Part shown: one piece after another, positions 42,010 through 60,950 of the stretch
Layout: each line of letters begins with the position of its first letter
Numbering within the stretch: the first letter of the stretch is position 1
From: Parahoeflea alexandrii
GTDB taxonomy: Bacteria; Pseudomonadota; Alphaproteobacteria; Rhizobiales; Rhizobiaceae
Assembly (NCBI RefSeq): GCF_027214025.1
Contig: NZ_JAPWHB010000011.1
Span: forward strand, 1-64,000
DNA: 64,000 bases
Direction: 5' to 3'
Made by a program: the position numbers and the translations under genes
The notes under the pieces: model-generated
Databases searched by the model: none
The model's input: only the letters and a program-made list of their open reading frames with translations
What the model was told of the DNA's origin: nothing

Positions 42010-42945
42010 TCAGCTCCCGGCCTGAAGCCGCTTGATACGAAGACGCGGATCGACGATCCCGTAGAGGATGTCGACGGCGAGATTGGCGCCAACCATGGTC
42101 AGGCCGACAAGCAGCAGGATGACCTGGACCACGGCCAGATCGCGGTTGGCGACCGCATTGACAAGGAGCCGCCCGACGCCCGGCCAGGAAAAGACGCTTT
42201 CCACCACCACCGCACCCGCCACCAGCGAACCGACCAGAAAGCCGATGATCGTAAGCGTCGGAATCGCGGCATTCGGCAGGGCATGGCTGCGCACGACATT
42301 CCGCCACAACAATCCCTTCGCCGAAGCAGTCCGGATATAGGGTTGCCCCAATACTTCGAGCATGGCCGATCGGGTGAAGCGCGCAATGACGGCAGCGCCC
42401 ACCAGGCCCATGGTGACGGTCGGCAACACCGCATGCGCCCAGGTGTCCGAGCCGCCGGATGGCAGCCAGCCGAGCCAGACCGCGAAGATCATCGCCAGCA
42501 CCAGCCCGAGCACGAAACTCGGCACGGTGAATCCCGCCACCGACAACATCATGATCAGCCGGTCCACCCAGGTGTTGCGGTAGAGCGCGGCCACGACGCC
42601 GGCCGGCAGGCCGATGGCAAGCTTGATGAACAGCGCCGGCAAGGTGATTGCCAGCGTCAGGGGGATGCGCTCGCCGACGACGACCAGCGCCGAGCGCCCG
42701 TCCCGCATCGAGTTGCCCAGGTCGCCTTGGGCCACGGCCACGAAATACTTGAAGTACTGAACCCATATCGGCTGGTCGAGGCCCCAGTTCCGCCGGAAGG
42801 CTTCGAAGGCTTCAGGCGGCGCTTCCGGCCCCAGAATGATGATCGCCGGGTCACCCGACAACCTGAGCACCACGAAGGCCGCTGAAACGATCAGCGTCAC
42901 TGTCACCAGCGCGCGAAAAATCTTCATCAAGAGATACTGGACCAT
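42010..42945 (-). CDS. Dipeptide-type ABC permease (DppB-like)
   Basis: This 311-residue permease has the N-terminal membrane helix MVQYLLMKIFRALVTVTLIV and the motif GDPAIIILGPEAPPEAFEAFRR characteristic of DppB. The coupling loop is IRTASAKGLLWRNVVRSHAL. I chose the ATG at 42945, five bases after the ATPase gene; 43 upstream in-frame codons are rejected as non-coding inside the neighbouring gene. Confidence 0.9.
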   Translation of the reverse strand: MVQYLLMKIFRALVTVTLIVSAAFVVLRLSGDPAIIILGPEAPPEAFEAFRRNWGLDQPIWVQYFKYFVAVAQGDLGNSMRDGRSALVVVGERIPLTLAITLPALFIKLAIGLPAGVVAALYRNTWVDRLIMMLSVAGFTVPSFVLGLVLAMIFAVWLGWLPSGGSDTWAHAVLPTVTMGLVGAAVIARFTRSAMLEVLGQPYIRTASAKGLLWRNVVRSHALPNAAIPTLTIIGFLVGSLVAGAVVVESVFSWPGVGRLLVNAVANRDLAVVQVILLLVGLTMVGANLAVDILYGIVDPRLRIKRLQAGS

Positions 42946-42950
42946 GATTC

Positions 42951-43952
42951 CTACTCCGCCGCCTGAGCAGCCGGCGCGGCGCCCGCGTTGACCAGATGAC
43001 AGGCCACCGCATGGCCCCCACTTGTCACCAGCTGCGGAACCTCGTTTCTGCAGGAAGCTTGGGCGATCGGGCAACGGGTGTGAAAGCTGCAGCCCGACGG
43101 CACGTCGACGGGGCTTGGAGGATCCCCCTCAAGCACGATCCGCTCCCGTTTTCCCCGCCGTGCAGGCGTCGGAATGGCCGAGACGAGCGCCTTGGTGTAG
43201 GGGTGCTGGGGACGCCGGAACACCTCTTCCGGCAGGCCCGATTCGACGATGCGGCCGAGATACATCACCGCCACCCGGTCCGACATCTGGCGAACGACCT
43301 TCAGATCATGGCTGATGAACAGGGCAGCGAATCCGGTGCGCTCGCGCAGGTCGTCGAGCAGGTTGAGCACCTGGGCCTGGATCGATACGTCAAGCGCCGA
43401 AACAGGCTCGTCGCACACCAGCAGGTCCGGTTCCAGCGCCAGTGCCCGCGCGATCACCACGCGCTGGCGTTGCCCGCCTGAAAGCTCGTGCGGATAGCGC
43501 ATGGCCATGTCCGGCCTGAGCCCGACGGACTCCATCAGAAGGGCAGAGCGTTCGGTCCGCTCTGCTGCCAACATTTCAGGATTGTGGATCTCGAACGGTT
43601 CGGCGATCTGGGTGATCACCGGCAGTCGCCGGTCGAGCGCGCCGAGCGGATCCTGGTAGATCATCTGCATCCGCCGACGCATCGCCCGCCACTGTGCATC
43701 GTGCCTGGCGGTCACTCGCGTTCCGGCGAATTCAACCGTGCCCGCGGTCGCCGGTATCAGGCCCAGCACCAGCTTGGCCGTGGTCGACTTGCCGCAGCCC
43801 GATTCCCCGACCAGACCCAAGGTACGGCCCTTCTCGATCGAGAAGGAAACGCCATCGACCGCCTTGAGCGATGCCTTGCGGCCAAACAGCCCCTCGGGGA
43901 TATGCACCTCGTAATGCCGCTTCAGATCCTTGGCCTGCAACAGGGCGCTCAT
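42951..43952 (-). CDS. Oligopeptide-type ABC ATPase (DppF/OppF-like)
   Basis: This 333-residue ATPase has Walker A GESGCGKSTTAK, signature LSGGQRQRVVIARAL, Walker B LLVCDEPVSALDVS and the peptide-transporter C-terminal domain with the Cys-rich segment GCSFHTRCPIAQASC, which can bind an Fe-S cluster in this family. Its ATG overlaps the DppD-like stop by 4 bases. Confidence 0.9.
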   Translation of the reverse strand: MSALLQAKDLKRHYEVHIPEGLFGRKASLKAVDGVSFSIEKGRTLGLVGESGCGKSTTAKLVLGLIPATAGTVEFAGTRVTARHDAQWRAMRRRMQMIYQDPLGALDRRLPVITQIAEPFEIHNPEMLAAERTERSALLMESVGLRPDMAMRYPHELSGGQRQRVVIARALALEPDLLVCDEPVSALDVSIQAQVLNLLDDLRERTGFAALFISHDLKVVRQMSDRVAVMYLGRIVESGLPEEVFRRPQHPYTKALVSAIPTPARRGKRERIVLEGDPPSPVDVPSGCSFHTRCPIAQASCRNEVPQLVTSGGHAVACHLVNAGAAPAAQAAE

Positions 43953-44974
43953 GCCGGCACCAGCACGTGTTTGTTGCCGGAAAGCCGCGCACTCTCTGCC
44001 GGCTTCTCGTCCCTGCACTTCACACAGGCGGCAAAATGACTCTGCGATTCGCCATAGGGCAGGAACGCCGGCATCCTGGCATCGCAGATCTTGCTGGCGA
44101 TCGCACAGCGCGGCGCGAAGCTGCAGCCGGGCGGCAACCGGTCGGGAGCAGGAACTGTTCCGGGAATGGATTCCAGACGCCGACGCGGACCGTCGATGTC
44201 CGGAAGTGCGGCTATCAGGCCCTTCGTGTAGGGATGCGCCGGGCTATCAAACAGCGAGCCGGTATCGGCCTCCTCTATCACCCGCCCGCCATACATCACC
44301 GCCACCCGGTCGCTCATGTCTGCAACGACACCCAAATCGTGCGAAATCAACACCAGCGCCATGCCCGAGTCACGGCGCAGTTCGGTGAGCAGATCCAGAA
44401 TCTGAGCCTGGATGGTGGCGTCCAGCGCCGTGGTCGGCTCATCGGCGATCAGCAGGTCGGGCTCGCCCGCGAGCGCCATGGCAATCATGATGCGCTGGTT
44501 CATGCCGCCCGACATTTCGTGCGGGTATTCCCGCAGGCGCCGCGTGGCGTTGGCAATGCCGACCCGGTCGAGAAGACGCGCTGCCTCCGCATCGGCGGAA
44601 GCCCCGGTCATGCCCCGGTGCAGTTTCAGCGCCTCGACGATCTGCCGGCCGATGCGGTGCACCGGATTGAGCGAACTTGAGGGGTCCTGGAAGATCATGG
44701 CGATGCGTCCACCGCGCAGTCCGGCGAGATCATTTTCCGGAGCACCGGCTATTTCCTGCCCGTTGAGCTGCACCGAGCCCGATATGCGCGCCCTGCTGCC
44801 AAGCAGCCCCAGGGCCGCCAGCCAGGTGATCGACTTGCCGCAACCGGATTCGCCGACAACGCCCAGAACCTCGCCCCTGGCGACAGTCAGGCTGACTCCG
44901 TGCAGCGCCCTGACAAAGCGCTTTCCCTGGTCGAAATCGATCGCCAGATCCTCAATTGACAGAAGCGTTTCCAT
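43949..44974 (-). CDS. Oligopeptide-type ABC ATPase (DppD/OppD-like)
   Basis: This 341-residue ATPase has Walker A GESGCGKSITWL, signature MSGGMNQRIMIAMAL, Walker B LLIADEPTTALDATI and the C-terminal Cys-containing segment PGCSFAPRCAIASKIC. It follows the binding-protein gene after a gap holding a strong hairpin with a T run, so its expression is probably reduced relative to that gene. Confidence 0.9.
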   Translation of the reverse strand: METLLSIEDLAIDFDQGKRFVRALHGVSLTVARGEVLGVVGESGCGKSITWLAALGLLGSRARISGSVQLNGQEIAGAPENDLAGLRGGRIAMIFQDPSSSLNPVHRIGRQIVEALKLHRGMTGASADAEAARLLDRVGIANATRRLREYPHEMSGGMNQRIMIAMALAGEPDLLIADEPTTALDATIQAQILDLLTELRRDSGMALVLISHDLGVVADMSDRVAVMYGGRVIEEADTGSLFDSPAHPYTKGLIAALPDIDGPRRRLESIPGTVPAPDRLPPGCSFAPRCAIASKICDARMPAFLPYGESQSHFAACVKCRDEKPAESARLSGNKHVLVPA

Positions 44975-44996
44975 TGGCTGGTTCTCCGTTGCGACT

Positions 44997-45029
44997 AAAA
45001 GGCCGGGGCGCGCAGTCCGCGCCCCGGCC
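44997..45029 (-). terminator. Strong intercistronic terminator or attenuator after binding-protein gene
   Basis: A 12-bp perfect GC stem (GGCCGGGGCGCG with CGCGCCCCGGCC) with a 5-base loop is followed at once on the minus strand by TTTT. It lies 8 bases past the binding-protein stop and before the DppD-like start. The operon must continue past it, so it probably acts as a partial terminator and a 3' stabiliser. Confidence 0.8.
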
Positions 45030-45036
45030 CCTGGCT

Positions 45037-46704
45037 TCAGTTGCCCGGTGCAACGACCTGGAAGTTGTCAGCCCGGAAATCCATCGACTGGAGACCCGAC
45101 CAGTTCCACTCGATGTCCTTGCGCTTGCCGAAGAAGATCGCGCTCTGGTGCAGCACCGTGTAGGCGGGATCCTCGCGCTCGGCGATTTCCAGCATCCGCC
45201 GGAAAGAAGCGCGGCGCTCTTCGAGATCGGTCGAGGTTTCGAGCTTGATGCAGAGCGCATTGAACTCTTCATTGGTCCATTCGCCGACCTGCTGCTGCTG
45301 GCCGTTCTGGCAATGCTGGTTGACGATCGAGGAGACCGGATCCGGGAACGGAGCCGAGTTCGACCAGTCGCGGACCATGCGCGGGCCGCTCTCCTTGTCG
45401 AAGATCTGCTGCCAGTTTTCCTTCATCTCGATCTTCACGTTGAGACCGATCTGGCGGAAGGATTCAGCATTGATCTGCGCTGTCGAAACCTGGTTGGTGT
45501 AGTAGTTGTTGAGGACGCGGAAGGTAATTTCCTCGCCATTGTAACCGGATTCCTGGACCAGCTTCCTGGCCAGTTCCATGTCATATTCCGGCACGGTCCA
45601 GTCAGACAGGAACATGTCGCCGTAATAGGACCACTGCAGACCGGCAGGAACCGTGGTGCGGCCATCCCAGAGCGTCTCGACGATGGTCTCGCGGTCGATC
45701 GCATGGGTCATCGCCTGTCGGATCTTCGGATTCTGCATCGGGCCGTTGTTCTTGTCGAACACCATTAGGCGGTGGTTGGTGATCGGGCCGCCGACGACTT
45801 CGAATGCGGCGTTGGATTCAACGGTGTTGATCTGGTCCGGCGGCAGGTCCGTGATGAAATCATATTCGCCGGAAAGAAGGCCGTTGACGCGGCTGGCAAC
45901 TTCCGGAACCACGGCAAACCGAAGCGTCTTGATCGGCGGCTTGCCACCCCAGTAGTCGTCATGGGCTTCGAGAACCAGGATGTTGTCGGGCTTGAACTCG
46001 ACCACCTTGTAGGGACCTGTACCGACCGGCTTCTGAGCGAAGGCAAGCCAGGACTCGGCTTCCTCATAGGCGCGCTTGGAGAGGATTTCCGCGCCGTAGC
46101 GGGAGATGCGGCCTTCGAGCGTCGGATCGGCGACCGTCGAGACGAAGCGGACGGTCATGTCATCGACCTTTTCAACGCGGTCGAGGTTCGGCCAGGCGCG
46201 TTTGGCGACGGCGGCCACTTCAGCCGGCGGAACCTTGCCGCCAACGGCGGTGCTGGCGCTCGCGGTGAACAGCGTCTTGCCGTCCTTGCGCGCATTGTCC
46301 TGCTCGTCGAGAAGGCCGAAGCGCTCCTTGGAGAAGGTGAAGACAACATCATCCGCCGTCATGACGTCGCCATTGTGGAACTTGACGCCGGGGCGCAGCT
46401 TCAACTCGACGGTCTTGTCGTCGATGCGCTTCCATTCGGTGGCAAGACCCGGCTTCTGCGGCAGGTCGGCGTTCTGGCGGTCGTAGTCGATGAGTGTTTC
46501 GAAAATCGAGTAGAACACGCGCGCTCCGACGTTGGACTGCTCGCGCAGCACGTCGAGTGCGCCTGCATTGACGATCTGCTGAACAGCAACCGTGATTACG
46601 GGGCGATCCTCGGCCAGAGCCTTCCCGGGCATCGTCAGCATCGTCGTTGCAAGAAGATATGCACCAATCAGCATGGCGCCTTTAAGCTTGCGGCTATGGG
46701 TCAT
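45037..46704 (-). CDS. Dipeptide-type periplasmic substrate-binding protein
   Basis: This 555-residue family 5 (DppA/OppA) solute-binding protein has a Sec signal peptide MTHSRKLKGAMLIGAYLLAT with an ALA-E type cleavage site near residue 31. The mature domain has the family motif GLATEWKRIDDKTVELKLRPGVKFH split near residues 85-110. GAGGAAC precedes the ATG at 46704; a longer frame upstream is rejected. The ligand may be a peptide, opine, glycoside or other hydrophilic solute. It heads the importer genes and is preceded by a phosphodiesterase-family gene. Confidence 0.9.
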   Translation of the reverse strand: MTHSRKLKGAMLIGAYLLATTMLTMPGKALAEDRPVITVAVQQIVNAGALDVLREQSNVGARVFYSIFETLIDYDRQNADLPQKPGLATEWKRIDDKTVELKLRPGVKFHNGDVMTADDVVFTFSKERFGLLDEQDNARKDGKTLFTASASTAVGGKVPPAEVAAVAKRAWPNLDRVEKVDDMTVRFVSTVADPTLEGRISRYGAEILSKRAYEEAESWLAFAQKPVGTGPYKVVEFKPDNILVLEAHDDYWGGKPPIKTLRFAVVPEVASRVNGLLSGEYDFITDLPPDQINTVESNAAFEVVGGPITNHRLMVFDKNNGPMQNPKIRQAMTHAIDRETIVETLWDGRTTVPAGLQWSYYGDMFLSDWTVPEYDMELARKLVQESGYNGEEITFRVLNNYYTNQVSTAQINAESFRQIGLNVKIEMKENWQQIFDKESGPRMVRDWSNSAPFPDPVSSIVNQHCQNGQQQQVGEWTNEEFNALCIKLETSTDLEERRASFRRMLEIAEREDPAYTVLHQSAIFFGKRKDIEWNWSGLQSMDFRADNFQVVAPGN

Positions 46705-46886
46705 GTTCAGTTCCTCAGCTTCGCATCTGTGCGTGGTTGTAGATCTCATGATCTCTCGCCCGGGGTCCTCGTGCAGGCCCAAAGACACGGCCACTGATAT
46801 TGGCGGCATGTGACGCTCAGGATTCGTCTGGATAAATTTTTGATGACAATCCACAGACGGCGCTCCGGGTGCGGCAAGCCTCGTGC

Positions 46887-48356
46887 TCAGAAGCGTCCCC
46901 CGCTAAGGGGAAATGATTGCCGCCCGTCAACTCCGGACAGAACGAGATACTGCCTGAAATCACCGGATCCGGCCTCAAGACGGATCTCTCGCGGTTCCGG
47001 AGCAGTCTTTCCGAGCACCCGTTCGAGCGGCGAGCCCGTCATCGTGGCGGGCCGGTCAATACCGAGAACTGCGAGAACCGTCGGTGCGATATCCGTGAGG
47101 TTCGCGTGGTCATTTACCATGGCGACAGGCAGCGTGGCGCCGCCGAATGCAAGCACCGTGTTCATCTCGAACGGGTTGAGCCCGCCATGCATGCCGCCTC
47201 CAACCGGCACGTTGACCCCGGTCGTGTAGACACCGGCTCCCGCGAGGCCGTGTTGATCCGCTTCCGGCGACGAACGCCCGACCCAGTAGATATCCGGTGC
47301 ACGAGAATGCTCGGCCCCGGCAAGAGCCCGATCGAACGCGCCGCTGATGACCGGTTCTCCGTTTGCATCGGTCCCACAAAACAAAAGCCCGGTCTCAGGC
47401 ATTTCCATCAGCGCTGCGCCGAGGGCCTGAAGCCGCGAGGCATCACCGCTGAGCAATGTCAGCCCGGCCGCGGATCCCGGCGTGACGAGAACCTCAACGC
47501 CGGGCTCGCCTCGGTTTCCGGCGGCAAAGCCCTTCTCACGGAGAGCCCCGACAAGGTCAAAGGCGGAGGTAGTCGAGATCTGCCCGTGATCGCTCATCAC
47601 GATCAGGAGTGTCTCATCCGCCCGCTCCGAAGCACGAACCATGTCGACGATCTTGCCGAAACAGGCATCCACATGGGCCGTCGCCGTGTCGGATTCCGGC
47701 GATCCAATTTCATGGATATGATAGGATGTGTCGGGTTCCGAGTACCAGATGATGGCGACATCCGGCTGCACCTCGGGCAGCACCAGCTCCGTCAGCACCC
47801 GCGTGGCATAGGATGCCTCATCAAGCTTGGGTGTCTTTCCGCCCGGAAGCGGACCAAACCGCTCGACGGCCTGGTCGACGGCTTCGGGCGTATCCGTGTG
47901 CTCTCTGCCGTGGATCGAGAATGTCCAGTGGCCAAGTTCCCTGGCGCGATGGCTGAGAAGCCAGGCAGACCCGGCCGAGCCCGAATGCACGACCGCGAGC
48001 CGCTTGCCGACTTCGGCCAGCGCGCAGCCGAGACCCTTGGCCTCGACGAATTCTCCATCGTGCCAGGCATTGGCCGCTCTTATGTGGGCCGCACGGGATG
48101 TGTCGAGCGGTTCACCGCCATCGATTGCCGGATGGAAGAAAGCGTTGTTGACCACGCCGTGCCGGGTGGGATGCGAGCCGGTCGCCAAGCTGGTGGTCGC
48201 CACCCTGGTCATGGACGGAAACACCGAGCGCGCCTCGCGGTACCAAAGCCCTTCGGTCAGGAACCGGCTGAGGTTGGGTGTCAGCGCTTCGGAAATGCGA
48301 TCGGGACGAAGCCCGTCAAAGACGGCAATGATGACGCGGGCGACTTTGGCTGACAC
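46887..48356 (-). CDS. Type I phosphodiesterase/alkaline-phosphatase-superfamily hydrolase
   Basis: This protein of about 489 residues is of the phosphodiesterase/nucleotide pyrophosphatase family (PF01663 type). The first metal-binding Asp is in IIAVFDGLRPD near the start, the nucleophile region is FPSMTRVATTSLATGSHPT, further metal ligands lie in PDTSYHIHE and MSDHGQIST, and a late His is in GMHGGLNP. No signal peptide is seen, so it acts in the cytoplasm. I prefer a GTG at 48356 with GGAG eight bases upstream; another GTG seven codons earlier is possible. Being next to an importer suggests hydrolysis of an imported phospho-compound, but the substrate is unknown. Confidence 0.8.
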   Translation of the reverse strand: MSAKVARVIIAVFDGLRPDRISEALTPNLSRFLTEGLWYREARSVFPSMTRVATTSLATGSHPTRHGVVNNAFFHPAIDGGEPLDTSRAAHIRAANAWHDGEFVEAKGLGCALAEVGKRLAVVHSGSAGSAWLLSHRARELGHWTFSIHGREHTDTPEAVDQAVERFGPLPGGKTPKLDEASYATRVLTELVLPEVQPDVAIIWYSEPDTSYHIHEIGSPESDTATAHVDACFGKIVDMVRASERADETLLIVMSDHGQISTTSAFDLVGALREKGFAAGNRGEPGVEVLVTPGSAAGLTLLSGDASRLQALGAALMEMPETGLLFCGTDANGEPVISGAFDRALAGAEHSRAPDIYWVGRSSPEADQHGLAGAGVYTTGVNVPVGGGMHGGLNPFEMNTVLAFGGATLPVAMVNDHANLTDIAPTVLAVLGIDRPATMTGSPLERVLGKTAPEPREIRLEAGSGDFRQYLVLSGVDGRQSFPLSGGRF

Positions 48357-48559
48357 GACTGTTTCTCCGGTTTCCACTTTCCCGGTCTATGCGCGCGTAT
48401 TGCGACAGGCGTGCTACAGGCCGGTGGAAAACCGGCATGAGCCGCGAACCTTCATCGATCCGTCATGGTTCTGATATCCGCCTGTCGCATGCCCGGCGCT
48501 ATAGCCGGTCCCGCATGCGGGGCCCGATCGACCCTGCCCAATCAGGAGAAGGTTTGGCC

Positions 48560-49481: not shown

Positions 49482-51239
49482 TCAGCCTTTGCCGAGCAAT
49501 TCCATCATCTGATCGCGCATGACGAATTTCTGCGGCTTGCCGGTGATTGTCATCGGCAGCGCCTCGACGATCCGGACGTATCTGGGAACCTTGTAGTGGG
49601 CGATCTGGCCGCTGCAGAACGCCCGCAGCTCTTCCCCGTCAATGCTGACGCCAGGCTTGGGGACAACCCAGGCACAGACTTCCTCGCCATACTTGTCGTC
49701 CGGCACGCCGAACACCTGCACTTCCGAGATCTTCGGATGCCGGAACAGGAACTCCTCGATCTCGCGCGGATAGACGTTCTCGCCGCCGCGGATGATCATG
49801 TCCTTGACCCGACCGACAATGGCGCAGAAACCCTGCTCGTCCATCACCGCTAGGTCTCCGGTGTGCATCCATCCGTCCCGGATCGACTCGGTGGTCTTTC
49901 CCTGGTCATCCCAGTAGCCCTTCATCACCGAATACCCCCGGGTGCAGAGTTCGCCACGGGCACCGACCGGCACGATCCGGCCGTCATCATCGACGATCTT
50001 GACCTCGAGATGCGGATGGATCCGGCCAACGGTTTCGCAGCGCTTGTCGATCGGGTCGTCGGTAAAACTCTGGAATGACACCGGCGACGTCTCGGTCATG
50101 CCGTAGCAGATCGTTACCTCGCGCATGTGCATCCGCTCCATCACCCGGTGCATCACTTCCACGGGACACGGGGCACCGGCCATGATCCCGGTCCGCAGCT
50201 GCGTCAGGTTGCGCGGTGAACGGTCGAGCTCCTCGAGCATGGCGACGAACATCGTCGGCACGCCGTAGACGGCGGTGCAGCGCTCCGCCTCCAGCGCCTG
50301 CAAGGTGGCCACCGGATCGAAAGCCTCGCCGGGAAACACCATCGCAGCGCCCTTGCTGACGGCACCCAGCACGCCCATCACCATGCCGAAGCAATGGTAG
50401 AGCGGCACCGGAATGCACAGCCGGTCGCTTTCGGTCAGCGCAATGCGATCTGTCACGAAGCGGGCATTGTTGACGATGTTGTAATGCGACAGCGTGGCGC
50501 CCTTGGGATGACCCGTTGTGCCCGAGGTGAACTGGATGTTGATGGCGTCATCCGGGCCGAGTTCGGCCTCGATCGCCGGCAGCCGCAGCTGCTGCGCCGG
50601 GCCGCCGAGCGTCCGCACCCGGTCGAATGAGAAGACCCCCGGCTCGCCGGCCTCGCCAAGCACGATCACCGACCGAAGATGCGGCAGTTTCGCTGCCCGC
50701 AACCGGCCGGGTTCGCATTCCGTGATCTCCGGCGCCAGCGACGTGATCATCTCAAGATAGTTGGAGGACTTGAACGCGCGCGCGGTCACCAGCGCCCTGC
50801 AGCCGACCTTGTTGAGCGCATATTCGAGTTCGGAGACGCGATAGGCCGGGTTGATGTTGACCAGCACCAGCCCGATCCGCGCCGTCGCAAACTGGGTCAG
50901 CACCCACTCGTAGCGATTGGGCGACCAGATGCCAATGCGGTCGCCCTTCTGCAGACCCATGGCGAGAAAACCGGATGCCAGTTCGTCCACCGCGCGGTCG
51001 AACTCGTAATAGCTCAACCGAATATCCTGCTGCGGACAGATGATCGCCTCGCGTGGGCCGAACAGCGACACGGCCTCGCGCAGCAATTGCGGGATGGTCA
51101 TGTAGCGCAAGGGCAGATGGGTGCTGCCGCGGACATAGGAAAGATTGTTCTCGGGCTCCGTCAATTCAACCGCCTGCGCCTTGCCGGTCCGGCCGAAATC
51201 GGAAAGTTTTCCTGCCAGGCTCTCGTTCAGAATGGACAT
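49482..51239 (-). CDS. Medium-chain acyl-CoA synthetase (ACSF2-like)
   Basis: This 585-residue AMP-forming acyl-CoA synthetase has the P-loop [16 protein letters not shown], the adenine motif [12 protein letters not shown], the hinge [22 protein letters not shown] and the C-terminal catalytic Lys in [11 protein letters not shown]. It resembles the ACSF2-type medium-chain or branched-acid ligases. GGAGGGAGG lies before the ATG. It follows the ATPase-amidase fusion by 11 bases, so it probably activates the carboxylic acid released by that amidase for entry into beta-oxidation or related routes. Confidence 0.88.
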
Positions 51240-51250
51240 GGGCCTCCCTC

Positions 51251-53617
51251 CTACATGCTGCGCCAGTCTTCGCTTTGCTCAAAGGCGTGCGCCGCCTGGT
51301 AAATCTTCAACTCGCCAAAACTCGGCCCCACCAGCATCATGCCGATCGGCAACCCCTCGCTCAACCCGCAAGGTACACTCATGGCAGGCAGTCCGCCATT
51401 GAAGGGCGCGGTGTTTCCGATCATCTCGAAGGCGCGCTGCACATAGAGGCTGATCGAACAGTCTGTCGGCGGGATCTGCTGCGGCTTCATCGGCATGGTC
51501 GGCATCAAGAGGACGTCGAAGCGCTTGAGCGCCTGGGCATACTTCTCGTTGACGCGGCGCATCAGATTCTGGGCCTTGCCGTAGAAGCGCCCGCGATACT
51601 GGGTCTGGAAATGCTCTCCGAGGAACATGCAGGTTTTCAGCGAATGGCTGAGTTCGTCCGCCCGGTTGCGCCACTGCGACATCTGGTCGATCATCGATGG
51701 CAGGAACAGGCCGCGGTAGTTGGTGCCCGCGGTATTGCCGTGCATCATGAAGTCCTGCAGGCCTTCCACCGTGATCGCGGTCCAGCAATCGACGGCCAGA
51801 GTGTGCTCCGGCACGGAGATTTCCTCGACCATGGCGCCCAGCTGCCGGAACCGCTCCGCAGCCGCGAGCACCTTCTCATCGACATCCGACTCGCTCTCGG
51901 GGCGACGGAAGCCTTCCTTCAGGATCCCGATCCGCAGCCCGTGCGCACCGCGGCCCAGCGCCTCGGTGTAGCGGTAGACCTTGGGGTTGTACTGGCGCGG
52001 ATCGAGCCCGTCCTCCCCTGCAAGCACCTCAAGCAGGAGCGCGTTGTCGGCAACGTTCGATGTGACCGGACCGACATGGTCGATGGTCATCTCCACCGGC
52101 ATCACGCCGGTGTAGGGCACCAGACCGTGAGTGGCCTTCATGCCGTAAACCCCGCAAGCCGAGGACGGCAACCTGATCGAGCCGCCCTGGTCGCCGGCGA
52201 TCGCCATGTCGACCTCACCGGTCGCCACCAGCGCCGCCGAGCCGCTCGACGAGCCGTTGGCCATGTAGCCGCGCTTCCACGGATTGTGCACCGGCCCCTT
52301 GGCATTGGTGTGCGATCCGCCGGACAGGCAGAAATTCTCGCAATGCGCCTTTCCGGCGATGATGGCGCCGGCATCGAGCATCCGCGTGACGATGGTTGCA
52401 TCGATCTCGGGCGTGTAGCCCTCCATGATCGACGACCCGTTCATCATCGGCACGCCGGCAAGGCAGATCGTGTCCTTCAGCGCGATCCGCTTGCCGCGCA
52501 ACGGCCCGTCGGGCGCTCCGCGCACCTCAGTTTTGACGTACCAGGCATTGAGCGGGTTTTCCGAGGGATCCGGAAAGCGCCCCGGCGAACGCGGATAGCG
52601 GACCTCGGGCAGATTGTCCGGAAGGGCGTCGAGCCGGTCATAGGCCTGGATGTAGGGCTCCATGATCTGGCTGTACTCGGCCAGTTCCGCGTCCGTCAGG
52701 TTCATGCCGAAACGGCTCGCCATGGCGCGCATCTGCGAAAGGCTGGGGCGTTTGACTGTCATGCTTGTCACCAGGGGCTGGGGAGTGATGGGTGCAGGTT
52801 CGGCAATCTGCTGCTGCCTCGGGGAGTTGGTCTTCGGATCGGGACCCGCATGCGCGGTGGCAGTTCCAGTGCCGCGTGTGGAACGCGCCGCGCCAAACCC
52901 GAGGAACTGGTCGACCTTCGCCTGGTCGGCCAGCTCGGCCTTGGAAAGTTCGCCGGCGATCCGTCCGCGTTCCAGCACCAGGACCCGGTCCGACAGATCC
53001 GAGATGAAGTCGAAGTTCTGCTCGACCAGCAGGATCGAAAGCCCGCGCCGTTCGCGCAAGCGAAGCAGGGTCTCCGACATCTCCTCGATGATCGAGGGTT
53101 GGATGCCTTCGGTCGGCTCGTCCAGCAGCAGGAATTCCGGATCGCCCATCAGGCTCCGGGCCAGCGCCAGCAATTGCTGTTCGCCGCCGGACAAGGCGCC
53201 ACCCATCCGGTCGAGCAGCCGCGCCAGCCGCGGGAAATCGGCGAGCACAGCTTCGATCACCTCTTCCTCGCCGCCGCCGGAGTAGTCGTGCCAGGCAAAA
53301 CGCAGATTGTCGCGCACGCTCAGTTGCGGGAAGATCCCGCGCCCCTGCGGCACGTAACCGATCCCGAGCCCGGCGCGCTCATAAGGTGAAAAGCGGGTGA
53401 TCTCGACACCGTGAAACCGGACGGTGCCGGAACTGGCCGGCAGAAACCCCATGATGGTCTTGAGCAGGGTGGACTTGCCCATGCCGTTGTGGCCGAGAAT
53501 GCCCACGACCTCGTTCTCGGCCACCGAAAACTCGATACCGTGCAGGATCGGGACCTTGCCGTAGCCTCCCGACAGGCTCTTGATATCCAGGCAGGTCTTG
53601 CGCTCCTCGGCCATCAT
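51251..53617 (-). CDS. LivF-type ABC ATPase fused to an amidase-signature amidase
   Basis: This 788-residue two-enzyme fusion has a complete LivF-type ATPase at residues 1-240 (Walker [10 protein letters not shown] 42-50, signature LSGGEQQLL 142-150, Walker B LLLDEP 163-168, switch LLVEQN). A Pro/Ala/Ser/Thr-rich linker spans 243-285. The rest is an amidase-signature enzyme resembling the nitrile-associated enantioselective amidases of Rhodococcus, with the Ser-cisSer-Lys triad intact as Lys381, a Ser in GSSSGS (455-460) and Ser480 in GDQGGSIR. The single frame has no stop, and an internal Met286 marks the usual amidase start without a good ribosome site. It starts by TGATG overlap with the LivG-type gene. 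It implies hydrolysis of an imported amide at the cytoplasmic mouth of the transporter. Confidence 0.9.
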
Positions 53618-54333
53618 CAGGCTTTCTTTCCCAGGTAGACATTGCGGACCGTGGGATCCGCCATGACCCGGTCGACATGATCCTCCATCAGCACAGCGCC
53701 CTGGTGGAAAACGGTCACGGTGCTGGCGATCGAGCGGATGAACTGCATGTCGTGCTCGACAATGACGACCGCCGCGGTGCGGGTCATCTCGCGGATGATG
53801 CCGCTCATGCGTTCGACGTCGTCGGCGCTCATCCCCGCGGCAGGCTCATCGAGCAGCACCAGCCAGGGATCGCCGGCAACGACCAGGCCCAGCTCGACCC
53901 GCTGCCGCTCGCCATGCGCCAGCCGACCGAGCTCGGTCCGCGCGATCGGGCCAAGGGCCAGCCGCTCGATCACCTCGGACGCCTTGCGCATCGCATCCTG
54001 CATCGGCAGGAACCGGCGCGCCGCCATCCAGATGTTCTCGAACACATCAAGGCCGTCCATCAGGTTGGGAACCTGTGTCTTGATGCCGACCCCAAGGGCT
54101 GCGACCTGATGCGGACTCCAGCCGGTGGTTTCATGCCCGCGCATGAAGACCTGACCGCTGGTGGGCGTCAGCAGACCGGTGATGCACTTGAAGAAGGTCG
54201 ACTTCCCCGCCCCGTTCGGACCGATCAGGCAGCGCAGCTCTCCGGCCCGCAGCTTGAAATCGACATTGTCGCTGGCAACCACGCCGCCGAACCGCATCGT
54301 CAGGCCAGCCGTTTCAAGCACGATTTCAGCCAT
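53617..54333 (-). CDS. LivG/UrtD-type ABC ATPase
   Basis: This 238-residue ATPase has Walker A GPNGAGKSTFFK, the modified signature LAHGERQRVELGL usual in UrtD proteins, Walker B LVLLDEPAAGMS and the switch IVEHDMQFI. It resembles urea/short-chain-amide transporter ATPases more than LivG proper. The ATG at 54333 overlaps the permease gene by 8 bases and has GGAG upstream; a GTG three codons earlier is possible. Its stop overlaps the start of the ATPase-amidase fusion by 1 base. Confidence 0.88.
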   Translation of the reverse strand: MAEIVLETAGLTMRFGGVVASDNVDFKLRAGELRCLIGPNGAGKSTFFKCITGLLTPTSGQVFMRGHETTGWSPHQVAALGVGIKTQVPNLMDGLDVFENIWMAARRFLPMQDAMRKASEVIERLALGPIARTELGRLAHGERQRVELGLVVAGDPWLVLLDEPAAGMSADDVERMSGIIREMTRTAAVVIVEHDMQFIRSIASTVTVFHQGAVLMEDHVDRVMADPTVRNVYLGKKA

Positions 54334-55363
54334 GCCCGGCACTCCGGCTGCGAAGGCGGCGCGCGCCGTGGCGGGGAACCCTGCGGCGTTGCCCGAAGCT
54401 GATCCGCCACAGCGAGACGATGGCCGGCACCAGCCCCTTGGGCAGGAAGAGCACGAACAGGACGAGAATGATTCCGGTCAGAAGCGTGTTGTCGATCATG
54501 CTCTGCTGGCCGAGCAAGAACTTGAGATAGGCAAGCCCCGCGGCACCGACGATGGGACCGATGCGGGTGCCAAGGCCTCCGACGATGCACCAGATGATGA
54601 TTTCGGCGGACTGGCCGAGACTGAAGAGATTGGGGGTGACGATCTCGCCCCAATTGGCAAACAGCGCACCGGCCAGCCCGGCGACCGCTGCGCCCACCGA
54701 GAAAAGCACGGTCTTGCGCGCGCTGACGTCGTAGCCCATCAGTGCCACGCGGACCTCGTTCTCGCGAATGCCGACAGCCACGCGCCCGAAGGACGATTTC
54801 AGCAACCAGCTGACCAGCAGGTAGACGATGAGTAGGAGAACGGCACAGAAATAGAAATAGGGATCACCGTAGATGTAGTCGTTCGGCCGTCCCGGCACGT
54901 TCAGCGTCTGGAAGCCGGGGATGCCGTTGAAGCCGCCGAGCCGTGCCTTGCCGATCACATATTCCGGACCGGCGGTCGAAGAGATGAACTTGAACAGGAT
55001 CAGCGTCACCACCAGCGTGATCACGCCGAGATAGACATCCGTCAACCGGCCATAGAACATCATCGCCCCGAGCAAGGCCGCAAATGCAGCCGGCACGAGA
55101 ACCGCAAGCAGCATCGGTATGGTGCTGTCGCCGATATTGATGGCAGCGATGGCGTAGGTGTAGGCCCCGAGCCCGAAAAACGCCGCCTGGCCGAAACAGA
55201 GGATCCCGCCAAAGCCCCAGATCAGCCCGAGGCTGAAGCCGAGCATGCCGTAGATCACCAGAACCGTCAGCGTATACGTGCCGATCATCATCGGCATGAT
55301 CCAGACCAGCAATGCCGCAATGATGATCGTGGCCGGCACTTCTTTTGCCCAGAAGGAAGCCAT
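54326..55363 (-). CDS. LivM/UrtC-type ABC permease
   Basis: This 345-residue permease has about ten hydrophobic segments, the motif GGILCFGQAAFFGLGAYTYA near residue 52 and a coupling loop IRENEVRVALMGYDV, as in urea and amide importers (UrtC, FmdF). The C-terminal end is a basic, Arg-rich tail. The ATG at 55363 overlaps the preceding permease stop as TGATG; a GTG one codon earlier is the alternative. Confidence 0.88.
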   Translation of the reverse strand: MASFWAKEVPATIIIAALLVWIMPMMIGTYTLTVLVIYGMLGFSLGLIWGFGGILCFGQAAFFGLGAYTYAIAAINIGDSTIPMLLAVLVPAAFAALLGAMMFYGRLTDVYLGVITLVVTLILFKFISSTAGPEYVIGKARLGGFNGIPGFQTLNVPGRPNDYIYGDPYFYFCAVLLLIVYLLVSWLLKSSFGRVAVGIRENEVRVALMGYDVSARKTVLFSVGAAVAGLAGALFANWGEIVTPNLFSLGQSAEIIIWCIVGGLGTRIGPIVGAAGLAYLKFLLGQQSMIDNTLLTGIILVLFVLFLPKGLVPAIVSLWRISFGQRRRVPRHGARRLRSRSAGHG

Positions 55364-56229
55364 CACAGGCGTCCCCGGAAGAACTTGCCGGTCACACCCT
55401 GCGGCAGCAGCCTCAGCAGCACCACCGCGGCGAGCAGCAACGCCACTTCACCCATCACCGGCGAGACCGCGAAGGTGAAGATCTGGCTGATGAAGCCGAA
55501 GAGGCCGGAACTCGCCATGAGCCCGGCGATCAATGACGGACCGCCCGCGATCACCGTAATGAAGGCCTTGGCGATGTAGGCTCCGCCCGATGTCGGCACC
55601 AGCCCGACAAGCGGCGCGAGAATCGCGCCGGCGAGCCCGGACAGCGCCGACCCGCAGAAGAACGTCGCCATGTAGATGCGTTCCGGTGAGTAGCCCAGTG
55701 CCGCAGCCATGTCCGGCAGTTGCATCGCGCCGCGCGCAATCAGCCCCAGCCGGGTGCCCTTGAGCACCGCATACATCAGGCCAAGCAGCACGATCGAGAC
55801 CAGGATGATGAAGAAGTTGTACCCGTTGACCTGGTAGTTCCCGACCGTGAAGCCGGAAATCGGCGTCGAGATCCCCGTAGTGGTGTTGCCGAAGATCATG
55901 GTCGCGAGCCCGATGAAGAACAGGCTCAATCCCCAGGTCGCAAGCATCGTGTCGACCAGCCGGCCATAGAGATGGCGGATCACCAGACGCTCGACCACCA
56001 GCCCGATCAGGCCAACGACCAAAGGGGCGATGATGAGCATGGCGACAAAGACATTGGCGCCCAGGGTGACCGCCGTGATCGTCACGTAGCCGCCCATCAT
56101 CATGAACTCGCCATGCGCCAGATTGATGATCTTCATCATGCCGAACACGATGGCGAGGCCCGCGCTGATCAATACCAGCGAAGCAACCGCGTAGAGCATT
56201 TCAACGATGATGACGAATACCAGATCCAT
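55363..56229 (-). CDS. LivH/UrtB-type ABC permease
   Basis: This 288-residue permease begins MDLVFVIIVEMLYAVASLVL. The family signature ISAGLAIVFGMMKIINLAHGE is near residues 21-41 and a coupling loop is at IARGAMQLPDMAAALGY. The start at 56229 is preferred over a longer frame that would run into the binding-protein gene. A GC-rich hairpin separates it from that gene. Confidence 0.88.
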   Translation of the reverse strand: MDLVFVIIVEMLYAVASLVLISAGLAIVFGMMKIINLAHGEFMMMGGYVTITAVTLGANVFVAMLIIAPLVVGLIGLVVERLVIRHLYGRLVDTMLATWGLSLFFIGLATMIFGNTTTGISTPISGFTVGNYQVNGYNFFIILVSIVLLGLMYAVLKGTRLGLIARGAMQLPDMAAALGYSPERIYMATFFCGSALSGLAGAILAPLVGLVPTSGGAYIAKAFITVIAGGPSLIAGLMASSGLFGFISQIFTFAVSPVMGEVALLLAAVVLLRLLPQGVTGKFFRGRL

Positions 56230-56308: not shown

Positions 56309-57529
56309 TCAGATCTGGATTTCGTACTGGGTGTTGTCGTCCGGATTGGCGCCGAGATCGCACACGGCCTGGGTGTCGATCGGCTGGCGCTGCGGCAGCG
56401 TTTCGACAACCTTCATTCCCTGGTTCTCGAACTCCATCAGGTGAACATCGAGAATGGCATGATGGGTCTGCGGATCGACGGTCACCTTGCCGCCGGGACC
56501 GGTGATGGAAACGCCGGTTTCCAGTGCATCCACAACCGCGTCGCGGTCCAGCGTTCCGGCAATACGCACGCCTTCGGCCCAGGTCAGCACACCGTGATAG
56601 TTGGACACGGCCAGTTCGTGCATGCCGCCTGCTTCACCGCCGGCTGCAACCCATGCTTCCTTGAACGCCACGTTTTCGGGCGTGTCGAGTTCCTGGCTGT
56701 AGTTGTAGGCAACCATGATGCCGTTGCCCTCTTCGGCCGTCAGCACCTTGTGCTCGTTGCCCACACCGAGCGTGGTCGAGGCCAGCGCGATACGGTCCTT
56801 CATGCCGGCAGCCGCCCACTGACGGAAGAACGACAGGTGCGCACCGCCGACCAGCGGCGCGATGACGAGATCGGGGCCGGCGGTCTGGATCTTGGCGATG
56901 GTCGAGCCGAAATCCGAGACATCGAGCGGGAAGAAGTCGACACCGACCGTCTCGCCGCCATTGTCGGCAACGAATTTCTGCAGCCAGCGGGCGGTGATCT
57001 GTCCGTAATTGTAGTCGGCGGCGACGATGTAGACCTTCTTGCCGGACTTGCCCATGGCGTAGGGCACCAGCGCTTCGGCCTGTTGAGCCGGCGTCACGCC
57101 ATTGATGAAGATGTTGCGGTCGCAGACGCCGCCCTCGTACAGCACGTTGTAGAAATAGAGTGTCTTGTTCTTGTGCAGCGTCTGGCGGATCGCCTCGCGC
57201 GAGGCCGACAGGATGCCGCCATGCACCACGTCGACCTTGTCCTCACGGACCAGTTGCTGGGCGTACTGGGAATAGAGCGCCATGTCGGACTGGGTGTCAT
57301 AGCCGACGACCTCGACCTGCTGGCCGAGCAGTCCGCCGGCAGCATTGATCTGGCTCACGGCCAGCCGCAGCGCCGTGTCCATCGGCTTGCCGTAGGCGTC
57401 GAAGATCCCCGAGACATCAAGCACCGAGCCGAGCTTGATCGTATCGGCGGCCATCACGGCGCGCGGCAGCATGACAGCGCCGGTTGCAGCGGCGGCGGAG
57501 GCAAGAAAATGGCGTCTGTTGATCGACAT
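56309..57529 (-). CDS. Urea/short-chain-amide-type binding protein, Tat-exported
   Basis: This 406-residue periplasmic binding protein is of the AmiC/UrtA/FmdD group. A twin-arginine signal NRRHFLASAAAATGAVML is followed by VMA-A cleavage. The mature start TIKLGSVLDVSGIFDAYGKP is typical of amide and urea binders, as are NVLYEGGVCDRNIF and DYNYGQITA. AAGGAATACG precedes the ATG at 57529. Together with the amidase fusion downstream, a carboxamide is the most likely ligand; urea is less likely because no urease or urea carboxylase gene is present. Confidence 0.88.
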   Translation of the reverse strand: MSINRRHFLASAAAATGAVMLPRAVMAADTIKLGSVLDVSGIFDAYGKPMDTALRLAVSQINAAGGLLGQQVEVVGYDTQSDMALYSQYAQQLVREDKVDVVHGGILSASREAIRQTLHKNKTLYFYNVLYEGGVCDRNIFINGVTPAQQAEALVPYAMGKSGKKVYIVAADYNYGQITARWLQKFVADNGGETVGVDFFPLDVSDFGSTIAKIQTAGPDLVIAPLVGGAHLSFFRQWAAAGMKDRIALASTTLGVGNEHKVLTAEEGNGIMVAYNYSQELDTPENVAFKEAWVAAGGEAGGMHELAVSNYHGVLTWAEGVRIAGTLDRDAVVDALETGVSITGPGGKVTVDPQTHHAILDVHLMEFENQGMKVVETLPQRQPIDTQAVCDLGANPDDNTQYEIQI

Positions 57530-57586: not shown

Positions 57587-59191
57587 TCAGTCTTTGTCTT
57601 TCTGCTTGGTTCTCTGGGCGTAGTCGGCGGTGCGGCCGGCCAGATTGGCGTCAAAATCGAGCCCGATTTCCTCGCCCATCTGCTTCATCGCAGGCAGTCT
57701 CACCGCCATGCCGAGGATCTGGTCCATCGCCGCGCCGAAGGCGTTGTCGACACCGGTGCCGCCGCCGGTGCCCATGCCGCTGATCTGGTTGATGCGGATG
57801 GAATCGATCTTCTCGACCGGCTTCATCATCTGCGTCATGATCTCCGGCAGGCGATCAAGCTTGCGCTCCTCGAGCCGCATCCGGATGACGGATTCGCTGA
57901 GCGTATTTTCGGCCTGGTTGAGGGCATGGCGTCCTGCGGCCTCGGCCTCCATGCGGCGCTGCTCGGTTTCTGCGGCGGAGCGGGCGACCTCGGCCTCGGC
58001 CTTGGCTTTTGCCAGCATGGTGCCGACATCGCTCTTGACCCGCGCGTCTTCCAGCGCGAGATCCCTCTTCTGCCTGAGGTTGGAGATTTCCTGCTCGCGC
58101 TCGACGACGGCGCGCTCCTTCTGCACCTGCACCCGTTCGGCGGCGAGCAGAACCTGGGCGCGGGCTTCTTCCTCGGCGGCTTTGGTCGAGGACTCCTCGA
58201 TCCTCCGCTTGGCTAGCTGGACCTCGTTTTCGATCCTTGTTTCCTCGAGCGCCAGCACCGCTGCCATCTCGGCGCGGCGCAGAGCCTCGTCATTGGCGAC
58301 CTGCGCCGCCTTCACCCGCTGCGTTTTCTCGATCCGGGCCTGCTCCGTAGCGAACTCGGCCTGCGCTTCGGCCTGATCGGACCGCGCCCGGGCTTCCGAC
58401 TGCATGCGCTTCAAATGTTCCTGCTGAGCGATTTCGGCTTCCTGTTCGGCGCGCTGCAACTCGAGCTGCCTCTGGTGCTGTGCCAGGCGGCTTTCCCGGA
58501 TCGCGATTTCGGTCTCGGTTTCCACCTTGACCCGCGCCTTGCGCTGTTCGGCCACCATCTCGGCGAGCCGCCGCATACCCTGGGCGTTAAACGCGTTGCC
58601 TTCGTTGAGCTGGCTCAGATCGCTCTGGTCGACGCTGACCAACGAGGTCGAAACCATGGCAAGCCCCAGACGCGCGGCATGCTCGGCCACGGCCTGCGTC
58701 ACTTCCGATGTGTAGCCGGAGCGGTCGAGGTGGATGTCGGCCAGGTTGCGCCGGGCGGCGGCATCCTGCATGGCGTTGATCAGGGCGCCGCCGACAACCT
58801 CGCGAATGGCGTCGCCGCCGCGGGCGATCCGCATCCCGAGGACCTGCGCGGCGGTGGCGATGCCTTCCGCCGATGGCTCGACCCGGAGCTCGAATTCCAT
58901 TTCGATGTCGGCGCGCAGCTGATCCTTCGTCAACAGCGATTCACGGCCCTTGCGATGGACGGGAAAGGTCACCGACCCCATCGAGACGCGCTGGATCTGG
59001 TGCAGGATCGGCAAGGCGAGACAGCCACCGTCGAGAACCACACGCTTGCCGCCAAGACCGGTCCGCACGAGTGCGGTGTCCAGCGTCGCCTTGGCGTAAT
59101 AGCGCTGCAGGAACCAGATCGCGATGATCAGCAGAAGCGCAAGTGCGAGCAGCGAAAAAAACCAGACCAAGGCCAAATCCCCCAACGGCAT
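57587..59191 (-). CDS. Flotillin-like SPFH-domain membrane protein
   Basis: This 534-residue protein has one N-terminal membrane helix (about residues 7-28, LALVWFFSLLALALLLIIAI), an SPFH/band-7 domain (about 40-200) and a long Glu/Ala/Arg-rich coiled coil (about 210-430), ending with a Gly-rich hinge GMGTGGGTGVD and a short helix. That is the bacterial flotillin layout. Flotillins organise membrane microdomains and oligomeric protein complexes. It sits 57 bases upstream of the binding-protein gene on the same strand, so it is probably in the amide importer operon, which is unusual. Confidence 0.85.
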   Translation of the reverse strand: MPLGDLALVWFFSLLALALLLIIAIWFLQRYYAKATLDTALVRTGLGGKRVVLDGGCLALPILHQIQRVSMGSVTFPVHRKGRESLLTKDQLRADIEMEFELRVEPSAEGIATAAQVLGMRIARGGDAIREVVGGALINAMQDAAARRNLADIHLDRSGYTSEVTQAVAEHAARLGLAMVSTSLVSVDQSDLSQLNEGNAFNAQGMRRLAEMVAEQRKARVKVETETEIAIRESRLAQHQRQLELQRAEQEAEIAQQEHLKRMQSEARARSDQAEAQAEFATEQARIEKTQRVKAAQVANDEALRRAEMAAVLALEETRIENEVQLAKRRIEESSTKAAEEEARAQVLLAAERVQVQKERAVVEREQEISNLRQKRDLALEDARVKSDVGTMLAKAKAEAEVARSAAETEQRRMEAEAAGRHALNQAENTLSESVIRMRLEERKLDRLPEIMTQMMKPVEKIDSIRINQISGMGTGGGTGVDNAFGAAMDQILGMAVRLPAMKQMGEEIGLDFDANLAGRTADYAQRTKQKDKD

Positions 59192-59309: not shown

Positions 59310-60434
59310 TTATATCTGTTTTATCACTTCAAACATGATTCCGTCGGCCCGAGCCAGGTAGATCGGGGCGCGCGCTACCGACCGTTTCGGAGAGAAAGCC
59401 CGCTTCACGCTCCGGTATCGAAACGCCGATCCCGACAGCGCATTGAGCCCCCGCCAGTCGCCGGATTTGTCGTCCATCAGCGCTGCCAGATAATGCACAC
59501 CCTCATAGGTCGACTGCCCGATCACATTGAGAACGGGAGCCTTGTCGCCGTGCAATCCGTAGTAGCTCTCCTTGAAGGCGCAATTGCCCTCGGTCCTGAG
59601 CGATCCGAAATAGCTCGCCGAGGAGAAGAACCGCTTCAGATTGCGGTCGCCGCAGGCAAGCAGGCCGTTCTCCTCGATGCAGCACGAAAGCCGGATCATC
59701 TTGCCATCCAGTCCCGCAGCCCCGAAGGCCCGGTTGAAGGTCACGGCATCCTGGCCGACGAGCGAGATCAGAAGCGCATCCGCGCCCGATTTTGCGATCT
59801 CGTCGACATAGTGCGACATGTTGCGCACGCCAAAGGGCAGGTATCGTTCATAGCAAAGCCCGACGGACAATTCCTTCAGCTTGGTCTTGGCATAGGAATG
59901 CGAAGTGTGCGGCCAGACATAATCATTGCCGATCAGCGCCCAGCGCTTGGGCCGGAATTGCTTTTGCAACGTCTCGATGGCGGGCCCGAGTTGATCGTGC
60001 GGCGTCTCGCCGATGGCAAAGATCCCGGGCGTGTTCTCCCCGCCTTCGTAAAGCGGCGTGTAGACGTACGGCACCCGCTGGCGCACGACCTTGCTCAACC
60101 GCTGGCGGATGGCGCTGATATGCATACCGACGATCGCGTCGATGGCATTGGCCTCGATCAGGTCATTGACCGTTTCCTCGACCGGGACCTTCGCCTCCAG
60201 AGCCGAGTCGATCATGATCAGCTGCACCTGTCGGCCGCCAATGCCGTTACCGCGGTTGATCTCTTCCGCCGCCAGCTGGGCCGAGGAGATGCAGGACGGT
60301 GCCCAAAGCCCGGCCGACCCGCACATCGGGATCAGCAGTGCCACGCGATAGAACCCCACCGAGCTTACCGAAGCCCAGTCGCGAAGGTCGTTCAACTCTG
60401 CCGGAAATGCCACTGCGGCCCGGGAAAACTCCAT
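59310..60434 (-). CDS. Cytosolic AmiC-like amide-sensing binding protein
   Basis: This protein of about 374 residues has the periplasmic-binding-protein fold of the AmiC/urea-binding family (YRVALLIPMCGSAGLWAPSC, IDAIVGMHISAIRQ, PYVYTPLYEGGEN). It has no signal peptide, so like Pseudomonas AmiC it should be a cytosolic sensor. AmiC works by holding the antiterminator AmiR; no AmiR is present here, but a MarR gene is divergent. I chose the ATG at 60434 with GGGGA upstream; a TTG 21 codons earlier is the alternative. Many Cys residues are notable (for example SCCIEENGLLAC). Its ligand is probably the operon's amide. Confidence 0.8.
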   Translation of the reverse strand: MEFSRAAVAFPAELNDLRDWASVSSVGFYRVALLIPMCGSAGLWAPSCISSAQLAAEEINRGNGIGGRQVQLIMIDSALEAKVPVEETVNDLIEANAIDAIVGMHISAIRQRLSKVVRQRVPYVYTPLYEGGENTPGIFAIGETPHDQLGPAIETLQKQFRPKRWALIGNDYVWPHTSHSYAKTKLKELSVGLCYERYLPFGVRNMSHYVDEIAKSGADALLISLVGQDAVTFNRAFGAAGLDGKMIRLSCCIEENGLLACGDRNLKRFFSSASYFGSLRTEGNCAFKESYYGLHGDKAPVLNVIGQSTYEGVHYLAALMDDKSGDWRGLNALSGSAFRYRSVKRAFSPKRSVARAPIYLARADGIMFEVIKQI

Positions 60435-60536: not shown

Positions 60537-60950
60537 ATGAAGAACCCCATCGAGTCCTATATTTCCTACACCCTGGCGGCGGCACACCGGGCGGTGCATC
60601 AGTCGCTGACGGCTGCGCTGAAGGAGCACGGGGTGCAGGTGGAGGTGTGGCGCGTGCTCGAAACACTGGACGCCGAGCCGAGCCAGACCATGGGCGAACT
60701 GGCGAGGATCGTGCTGATGAACCCGCCGACGCTGACCAAGATGGTCGACCGCATGGTCATGGACGGGCTCGTCCACCGTCAGGCCGGCAAGAGCGACCAG
60801 CGGCAGGTGAACCTGATGCTCACCGACCTGGGACGCAAGCGCATGGCGCAGATACGCGATGTCGTCCAGAGCCAGGACGAGGCGATCTACAACTTGCTCG
60901 GCGAAAGCGAAGTGGCCAAGCTGAACGATATCCTCGGCCGCCTGATGTAG
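60537..60950 (+). CDS. MarR-family regulator next to amide operon
   Basis: This 137-residue MarR-family protein has the winged helix TMGELARIVLMNPPTLTKMVDRM and the wing AGKSDQRQVNLMLT. GGAACAGAC precedes the ATG at 60537. It is divergent from the AmiC-like gene with a 102-base AT-rich gap, so local control of the amide operon is likely. Its effector may be an acid, acyl-CoA or amide of that pathway. Confidence 0.87.
   Translation: MKNPIESYISYTLAAAHRAVHQSLTAALKEHGVQVEVWRVLETLDAEPSQTMGELARIVLMNPPTLTKMVDRMVMDGLVHRQAGKSDQRQVNLMLTDLGRKRMAQIRDVVQSQDEAIYNLLGESEVAKLNDILGRLM

Follow-up and report, generated by a model that had tools for sequence, protein, structure and literature searches.

Does a gene that reads without interruption from an importer ATPase into an amidase encode a genuine transporter–enzyme hybrid, and if so, is the hybrid its sole product? 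The window analysed here (the whole stretch of 64,000 nucleotides, from a marine bacterium) carries such a gene at 51251..53617 on the minus strand, an in-frame fusion of a LivF/UrtE-type ATPase to an amidase (788 aa) that starts with ATG and runs for 788 codons with 0 internal stops. The uninterrupted frame had already been recognised in the original prediction, from which the strand was absent. Judged from sequence, the gene is a real, conserved two-domain protein composed of a Urt/Liv-like importer ATPase and a Rhodococcus-type amidase.

The fused frame and its relatives

The ATPase domain (residues 1–240, 52898..53617, minus strand) is delimited by the Pfam ABC_tran model (residues 25–169, 110.7 bits against a cut-off of 25), by the NCBIfam models for UrtE and LivF and by its motif residues. 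Its score against UrtE (TIGR03410, 261.8 bits, below the cut-off of 285.8) is ahead of its score against LivF (NF008626, 148.4 bits, below the cut-off of 441), and since both equivalog cut-offs are missed the fusion is assigned neither to the urea transporters nor to those for branched-chain amino acids. An ordinary urea transporter was considered for the operon as a whole and rejected, as the UrtA, UrtB, UrtC, UrtD and UrtE models all score below cut-off there. Residues G42, N44, G45, G47, K48 and T50, Q91, LSGGEQQ (142–148), D166–E167 and Q200 are invariant in 58/58 aligned fusions, and they include what we take to be the Walker A (core at G42–T50), Q-loop, signature and Walker B residues of a LivF/UrtE-type ATPase. 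The LivF-type assignment made earlier is thus kept for its motif residues, all of which are intact, and amended for its family label, to which UrtE is nearer than LivF.

A linker of 45 aa (residues 241–285, 52763..52897, minus strand), which varies among relatives and is predicted to be disordered, leads to the amidase-signature domain (residues 286–788, 51251..52762, minus strand), assigned by family models, alignment and fold. Pfam Amidase (PF01425) matches residues 364–769 with 293.7 bits (cut-off 27) and the NCBIfam PRK07235 amidase model NF005565 matches residues 286–787 with 762.2 bits against a cut-off of 545. The catalytic residues are complete, as had been claimed: K381, S456 and S480 of the Ser-cisSer-Lys set are invariant in the 58 aligned fusions, the roles of K381 and S456 being presumed from their spacing, and S480 pairs with a serine of the Rhodococcus amidase that appears as alanine in the benzamide-bound structure 3a1i. 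The best solved relative of the fusion by sequence is the Rhodococcus amidase 3a1k (454.6 bits), and because query residue 289 pairs with residue 4 of its chain, Met286 lies in register with residue 1 of that enzyme. A Foldseek search with the predicted structure placed 3a1k at rank 1 and 1ji0, a LivF-type ATPase, at rank 42. The predicted structure has a mean pLDDT of 81.8 and a pTM of 0.61, with pLDDT below 50 at residues 1–4, 241–286 (the linker), 394–397 and 628–645; structure prediction and the residue-invariance alignment used 58 of the 87 distinct fusions described below.

The two-domain architecture was sought elsewhere, as had been proposed, and was found fused in frame in 92 of 122 amidase loci; 24 are unfused and six, cut by contig ends and counted as neither fused nor unfused, are undecided. 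The 122 are those loci with an amidase match, mostly close relatives and not a random sample, and they include the best 80 loci of the named scan. Removal of duplicates (L055, L056, L058, L099 and L121) reduces the 92 to 87 distinct fusions, with linkers of 32–124 aa measured from the end of the ATPase match. Their hosts, among the matches listed, are Hoeflea, roseobacters, other Alphaproteobacteria, Beta- and Gammaproteobacteria and one SAR324 bin. The full-length fusion is present in 12 of 101 genomes, own genome included, with five among the 18 genomes of the window's genus, and in 11 of the 397 genomes of the order sample (own included), where two more are cut by contig ends; each fusion from both samples was confirmed by an open-frame check. 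Matches at 1e-120 came from 21 of the 398 genomes in the phylum sample, and no fused locus other than the window's own was seen among the loci fetched.

On two complete Sulfitobacter plasmids the fusion is annotated as one CDS under the bare name "amidase", and a fusion recorded in this way is easily overlooked; no description of a LivF–amidase fusion was found among the matches listed in the open-licence literature on fusion and amide import. Two candidate loci were rejected: L138 (genome G468) has a stop after the ATPase and is not fused, and at L128 (Cupriavidus) the long frame preceding the amidase is spurious. Additionally, two genomes that belong to one family (f18) have a second amidase of the same protein family directly downstream of the fusion, at G304:C4:463553-465046 and G218:C1:650688-652250.

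The internal start and the origin of the fusion

Within the frame, Met286 (ATG at 52760..52762, minus strand) is preceded by GGTGA (52768..52772, minus strand), a candidate ribosome-binding site by pairing energy and conservation. Across the fusions, a conserved start codon was found together with a ribosome-binding sequence above expectation (86 of 87 fusions; 18 of 20 clusters). The 86 Mets at the amidase start include 13 that sit one codon upstream of the window position, those of Betaproteobacteria, a Chromatiales and a SAR324 bin among them. The sole fusion without an internal ATG, L076 from Pseudosulfitobacter koreensis, has ATC (Ile) there and retains the GGTGA before it, and may be regarded as a natural control for the idea of two products.

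Over the 87 fusions, column entropy is 0.09 bits at the internal Met vs 2.6–3.5 bits at the 15 preceding residues. Predicted pairing with an assumed 16S tail sequence has a mean of -7.5 kcal/mol before this Met vs a synonymous expectation of -4.8, and a mean of -3.9 before 2,479 other in-frame Mets of the fusions. A search for this tail gave no match in the window's genome or in four other Hoeflea assemblies; of six further genomes, including four from the window's genus, only G312 matched. Pairing is stronger than the synonymous expectation in 79 fusions and shows the opposite in 8, these statistics covering all 87 and hence L076, which has no ATG. After grouping into 20 clusters (single linkage, 80% crude ungapped identity), 18 clusters lie beyond the synonymous expectation (Wilcoxon P 4e-5) and two, those of L012 and L091, on the wrong side of it; control Mets, taken from one member per cluster, lie beyond expectation in 10 of 20, i.e. 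without excess.

Alternatively, only the full-length fusion may be made, the internal Met with its ribosome-binding-like bases being a relic of a once separate amidase gene. The true starts of 21 unfused relatives (L016, L023 and L026 being left out of this positive control) occupy the same position as the internal Met and have strong sites with a mean pairing of -8.7, which makes a relic the natural null. Additionally, the window's own site is moderate (-7.2 vs -4.6 expected, P 0.26 alone, not significant), the sites of L012, L034 and L037 are weak, as are those in several sequences of the L012 and L034 groups, and L076 is without the Met. Relics should decay, however, and here the preceding residues vary freely and the amidases differ from that of the window by up to 41%, yet the Met persists in all but one fusion. 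The letters of the site also change between groups (GGTGA, GGAGG, GGGGGA), yet its strength is kept above expectation. In the window's tree group of 41 fusions, codon -3 is of the GTG, GTA or GGG type in 35 (the other six were dropped for another codon type), and the third base of codon -4 is G in 35/35 despite an amino acid that ranges over L, P, V, T, A, S and Q; outside this group the wobble G occurs in 4 of 14 sequences with such a -3 codon, so that the overall figure of 39/49 vs 21 expected reflects a signal confined to one group. A relic is accordingly held to be unlikely. Our own reading, for sequences that are related to one another, is that the patterns point to selection for initiation at the internal Met, and this suggests that the gene makes both the tethered fusion and a free amidase. 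A start at Met286 had been named in the original prediction as grounds for abandoning the fusion; the sequences suggest instead that the two products coexist. Start codon and site conservation were likewise weighed in a study of alternative starts in Salmonella, as far as the available part of that report describes (PMC11005335).

A further explanation holds that the free amidase from Met286 does the work and that the fused frame is a coupling or dosage device, the long form being an ATPase with a passive tail. A complete amidase does start at Met286, and unfused relatives have separate genes in operons that are otherwise alike; the catalytic residues do not discriminate between a working tethered form and a passive-tail form. 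The frame is nevertheless kept through linkers of very different length, and the six rows in which both domains are adjacent but separate all fall in one clade of a 115-row amidase tree, none being scattered among the fusions, a distribution that passive read-through does not predict. Taken together, these points leave the passive-tail explanation quite improbable.

The 115-row amidase tree, from which the distant amidases L023 and L026 were left out, needs three changes between the fused and separate states, its separate rows being a clade of 20, L128 and the distant L016. A 97-row tree of complete loci only (without L125, L133 and L019) needs one change. On a rooted ATPase tree with a paralogue outgroup, the separate group is nested inside the fused group, and forcing the fused rows together was not rejected (P-AU 0.375, for 32 of the 87 fusions, 9 of the 12 separate loci and 7 of the 10 paralogues). 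To the question raised earlier of whether the architecture forms a clade, the 97-row tree thus answers with a single change and the 115-row tree with three, and on the ATPase tree a fused clade is neither shown nor rejected. The history may have been either one fusion event or an ancient fusion later split in one line. An assembly error or frameshift in the linker, which had been foreseen as one way in which the fusion might fail, or an annotation artefact, is practically ruled out by the occurrence of the fusion in 87 distinct loci and on the two complete Sulfitobacter plasmids.

The operon and a proposed import unit

The operon of the window lies on the minus strand in the order AmiC-like gene, flotillin, binding protein, two permeases, UrtD-type ATPase, fusion and acyl-CoA ligase, with gene spacings between -17 and +118 bases when likely starts are used, so that a binding protein, two permeases and a LivG/UrtD partner accompany the fusion. 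The first gene (59310..60434; likely start ATG 60434, mechanical ORF to 60497) encodes a ligand-sensor-like protein of the binding-protein family, which in our own reading is labelled AmiC-like because of its leading position in the operon and its lack of an evident signal peptide. It is followed by the flotillin gene (57587..59191), with both Pfam domains present (Flot 106.9 bits, Band_7 33.7 bits) and no solved relative found by sequence search, and by the substrate-binding protein (56309..57529; likely start ATG 57529, mechanical ORF to 57571), whose Tat-like signal of 22.6 bits is just under the Pfam cut-off of 22.7. The UrtB/LivH-type permease (55363..56229; likely start ATG 56229, mechanical ORF to 56409), the UrtC/LivM-type permease (54326..55366, assigned by family models) and the UrtD/LivG-type ATPase (53617..54342), which overlaps the start of the fusion by one base, complete the transporter, and the acyl-CoA ligase (AMP-binding, 49482..51239) follows 11 bases after the fusion, all of these on the minus strand. 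A divergent MarR-type-like regulator gene (60537..60950, plus strand) is assigned from our own reading of its translation and from Sulfitobacter annotation, a MarR gene being annotated at the corresponding place in the two Sulfitobacter plasmids. Beside this regulator, at 61042-63060 (minus strand), our reading of the translation gives an FtsH-like membrane protease gene. By the same kind of reading, the region 42010-48377 holds peptide-type ABC importer-like genes on the minus strand, adjoined by a phosphodiesterase/pyrophosphatase-like gene at 46887-48377.

Neighbours were counted in 72 fused loci from the best 80 loci of the named scan, where enough DNA was present. Among these, flotillin is upstream in 57 of 58, the binding protein is in place in 61 of 62 and an acyl-CoA ligase is downstream in 68 of 70; the miss at L133 is due to a cut, as the contig begins inside the ATPase and the ligase itself is present. 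Of 58 fused loci of this set, 45 have the AmiC-like gene upstream in the same orientation and three have it on the opposite strand or downstream, while in ten it was not seen. L132 (a Burkholderiales bin, CP070753.1) has the fusion, permeases and UrtD with no flotillin, binding protein or ligase nearby, in a locus that holds 300 N, and is a real exception to the association. Neither flotillin nor an acyl-CoA ligase was found, also at E 1e-3, in any of the 12 unfused loci whose adjacent transporter is complete (L127, L134, L147, L149, L153, L157, L160, L163, L164, L165, L168 and L169), L144 being left out of this comparison from the 13 unfused loci with an adjacent LivF. By sequence comparison, the fusion thus appears strongly associated with flotillin and ligase, perhaps through one evolutionary event, given that the tree needs just one or a few switches between the fused and unfused states. 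Additionally, six loci from one family of genomes (f35; L148, L152, L154, L155, L156 and L158) have a separate amidase with an AmiC-like gene some 1.2 kb ahead of it; the amidase is followed by a distant transporter set (31–44% identity), in which a permease precedes the binding protein.

As to the substrate, the nearest solved relatives of the binding protein are 8tg1, urea-binding proteins and then AmiC, and the product of the first gene matches 8tg1 with 106.7 bits, urea-binding proteins with 75–79 bits and AmiC (1pea, 1qnl) with 58.8 bits. Neither these solved relatives nor those of the ligase singled out a substrate; the relatives of the binding protein, taken with the amidase, point to a carboxylic amide as its type, and the ligase in the operon suggests use of the acid in the form of its CoA ester. 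Liv and Urt importers have two different ATPases on the cytoplasmic side of the membrane. Neither in the window nor in the two annotated Sulfitobacter operons does the transporter have a LivF-type gene other than the fusion, and for this reason the amidase should sit on the cytoplasmic side of the importer, one tethered per assembled importer. The cytoplasmic placement proposed originally is supported by this argument; the proposed ratio of one amidase per transporter need not hold if free amidase is also made.

A Urt/Liv-like importer would accordingly take up a carboxylic amide, and the tethered amidase would split it, as it enters, to acid and ammonia, after which the acyl-CoA ligase would convert the acid to its CoA ester. 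Flotillin may collect importer, amidase and ligase at one membrane site, a connection of the operon's flotillin and ligase that goes beyond what was first predicted. The internal start would add free amidase, and tethered and free subunits may pair. Considered as a whole, the operon probably encodes a membrane-attached unit for amide import, hydrolysis and CoA activation, in which the internal start also supplies free amidase. The more specific picture of a transporter–enzyme hybrid, in which tethered and free amidase pair on the importer and flotillin holds all of this with the ligase so that the amide leaves as a CoA ester, is possible and is put forward tentatively.

Comparison with known systems

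If the proposal is true, this would be a natural ABC importer joined to the enzyme that uses its substrate and conserved in several classes of Proteobacteria, and it would allow a test of whether a physical link between uptake and catabolism is of benefit. The gene would be a clean case of a fusion that retained an old start site and may make both forms. A bacterial flotillin tied to one defined import operon would additionally make the role of flotillin in nutrient uptake directly testable.

Several elements of the system have known counterparts. Urt-like ABC importers beside amidase genes occur in Fmd systems, and ABC exporters that contain a peptidase also exist. The Rhodococcus sp. N-771 amidase (3a1k, 3a1i; NF005565) is the nearest enzyme by sequence and fold and has the catalytic serine in common, but it stands alone, without an ATPase domain, whereas the window amidase is fused to one. 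AmiC, the amide sensor of known structure (1pea, 1qnl), is matched by the product of the first gene, which 8tg1 and the urea-binding proteins match better, and the fused operons seen have a MarR-type gene beside the sensor, not an ANTAR gene. At L169, a Paracoccus methylovorus plasmid, an unfused transporter and amidase precede a gene annotated as a substrate-binding domain and then an ANTAR gene, presumably the order expected of amiC–amiR regulators, in contrast with the MarR-type gene beside the fused operons.

In Bradyrhizobium, the available part of one report describes a Urt-like cluster beside amidases, for which uptake of an amide other than urea was proposed; its importers comprise, as here, a binding protein, two permeases and two ATPases with amide-hydrolysing enzymes next door (PMC3098086). 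Those amidases are described there as separate proteins of other families (PF03069, PF00795), whereas the enzyme of the window is part of one ATPase and its operon includes a flotillin and an acyl-CoA ligase. A heme importer of Staphylococcus, IsdF, needs flotillin and is presented, in the portion of the report considered, as the first such nutrient system (PMC10147376); a nutrient importer at flotillin-organised membrane sites is comparable to the present proposal, and that portion mentions no fused enzyme or shared operon. HlyB-type ABC exporters with a C39 peptidase-like domain similarly unite a transporter chain with an enzyme-type domain, according to the available part of their description (PMC11026475), but they are exporters with an N-terminal domain, whereas the window protein joins an importer ATPase to a C-terminal catabolic enzyme. 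Enzyme-type domains on ABC exporters being already known, what appears to be new here is an importer ATPase that carries a catabolic enzyme, together with a probable second product.
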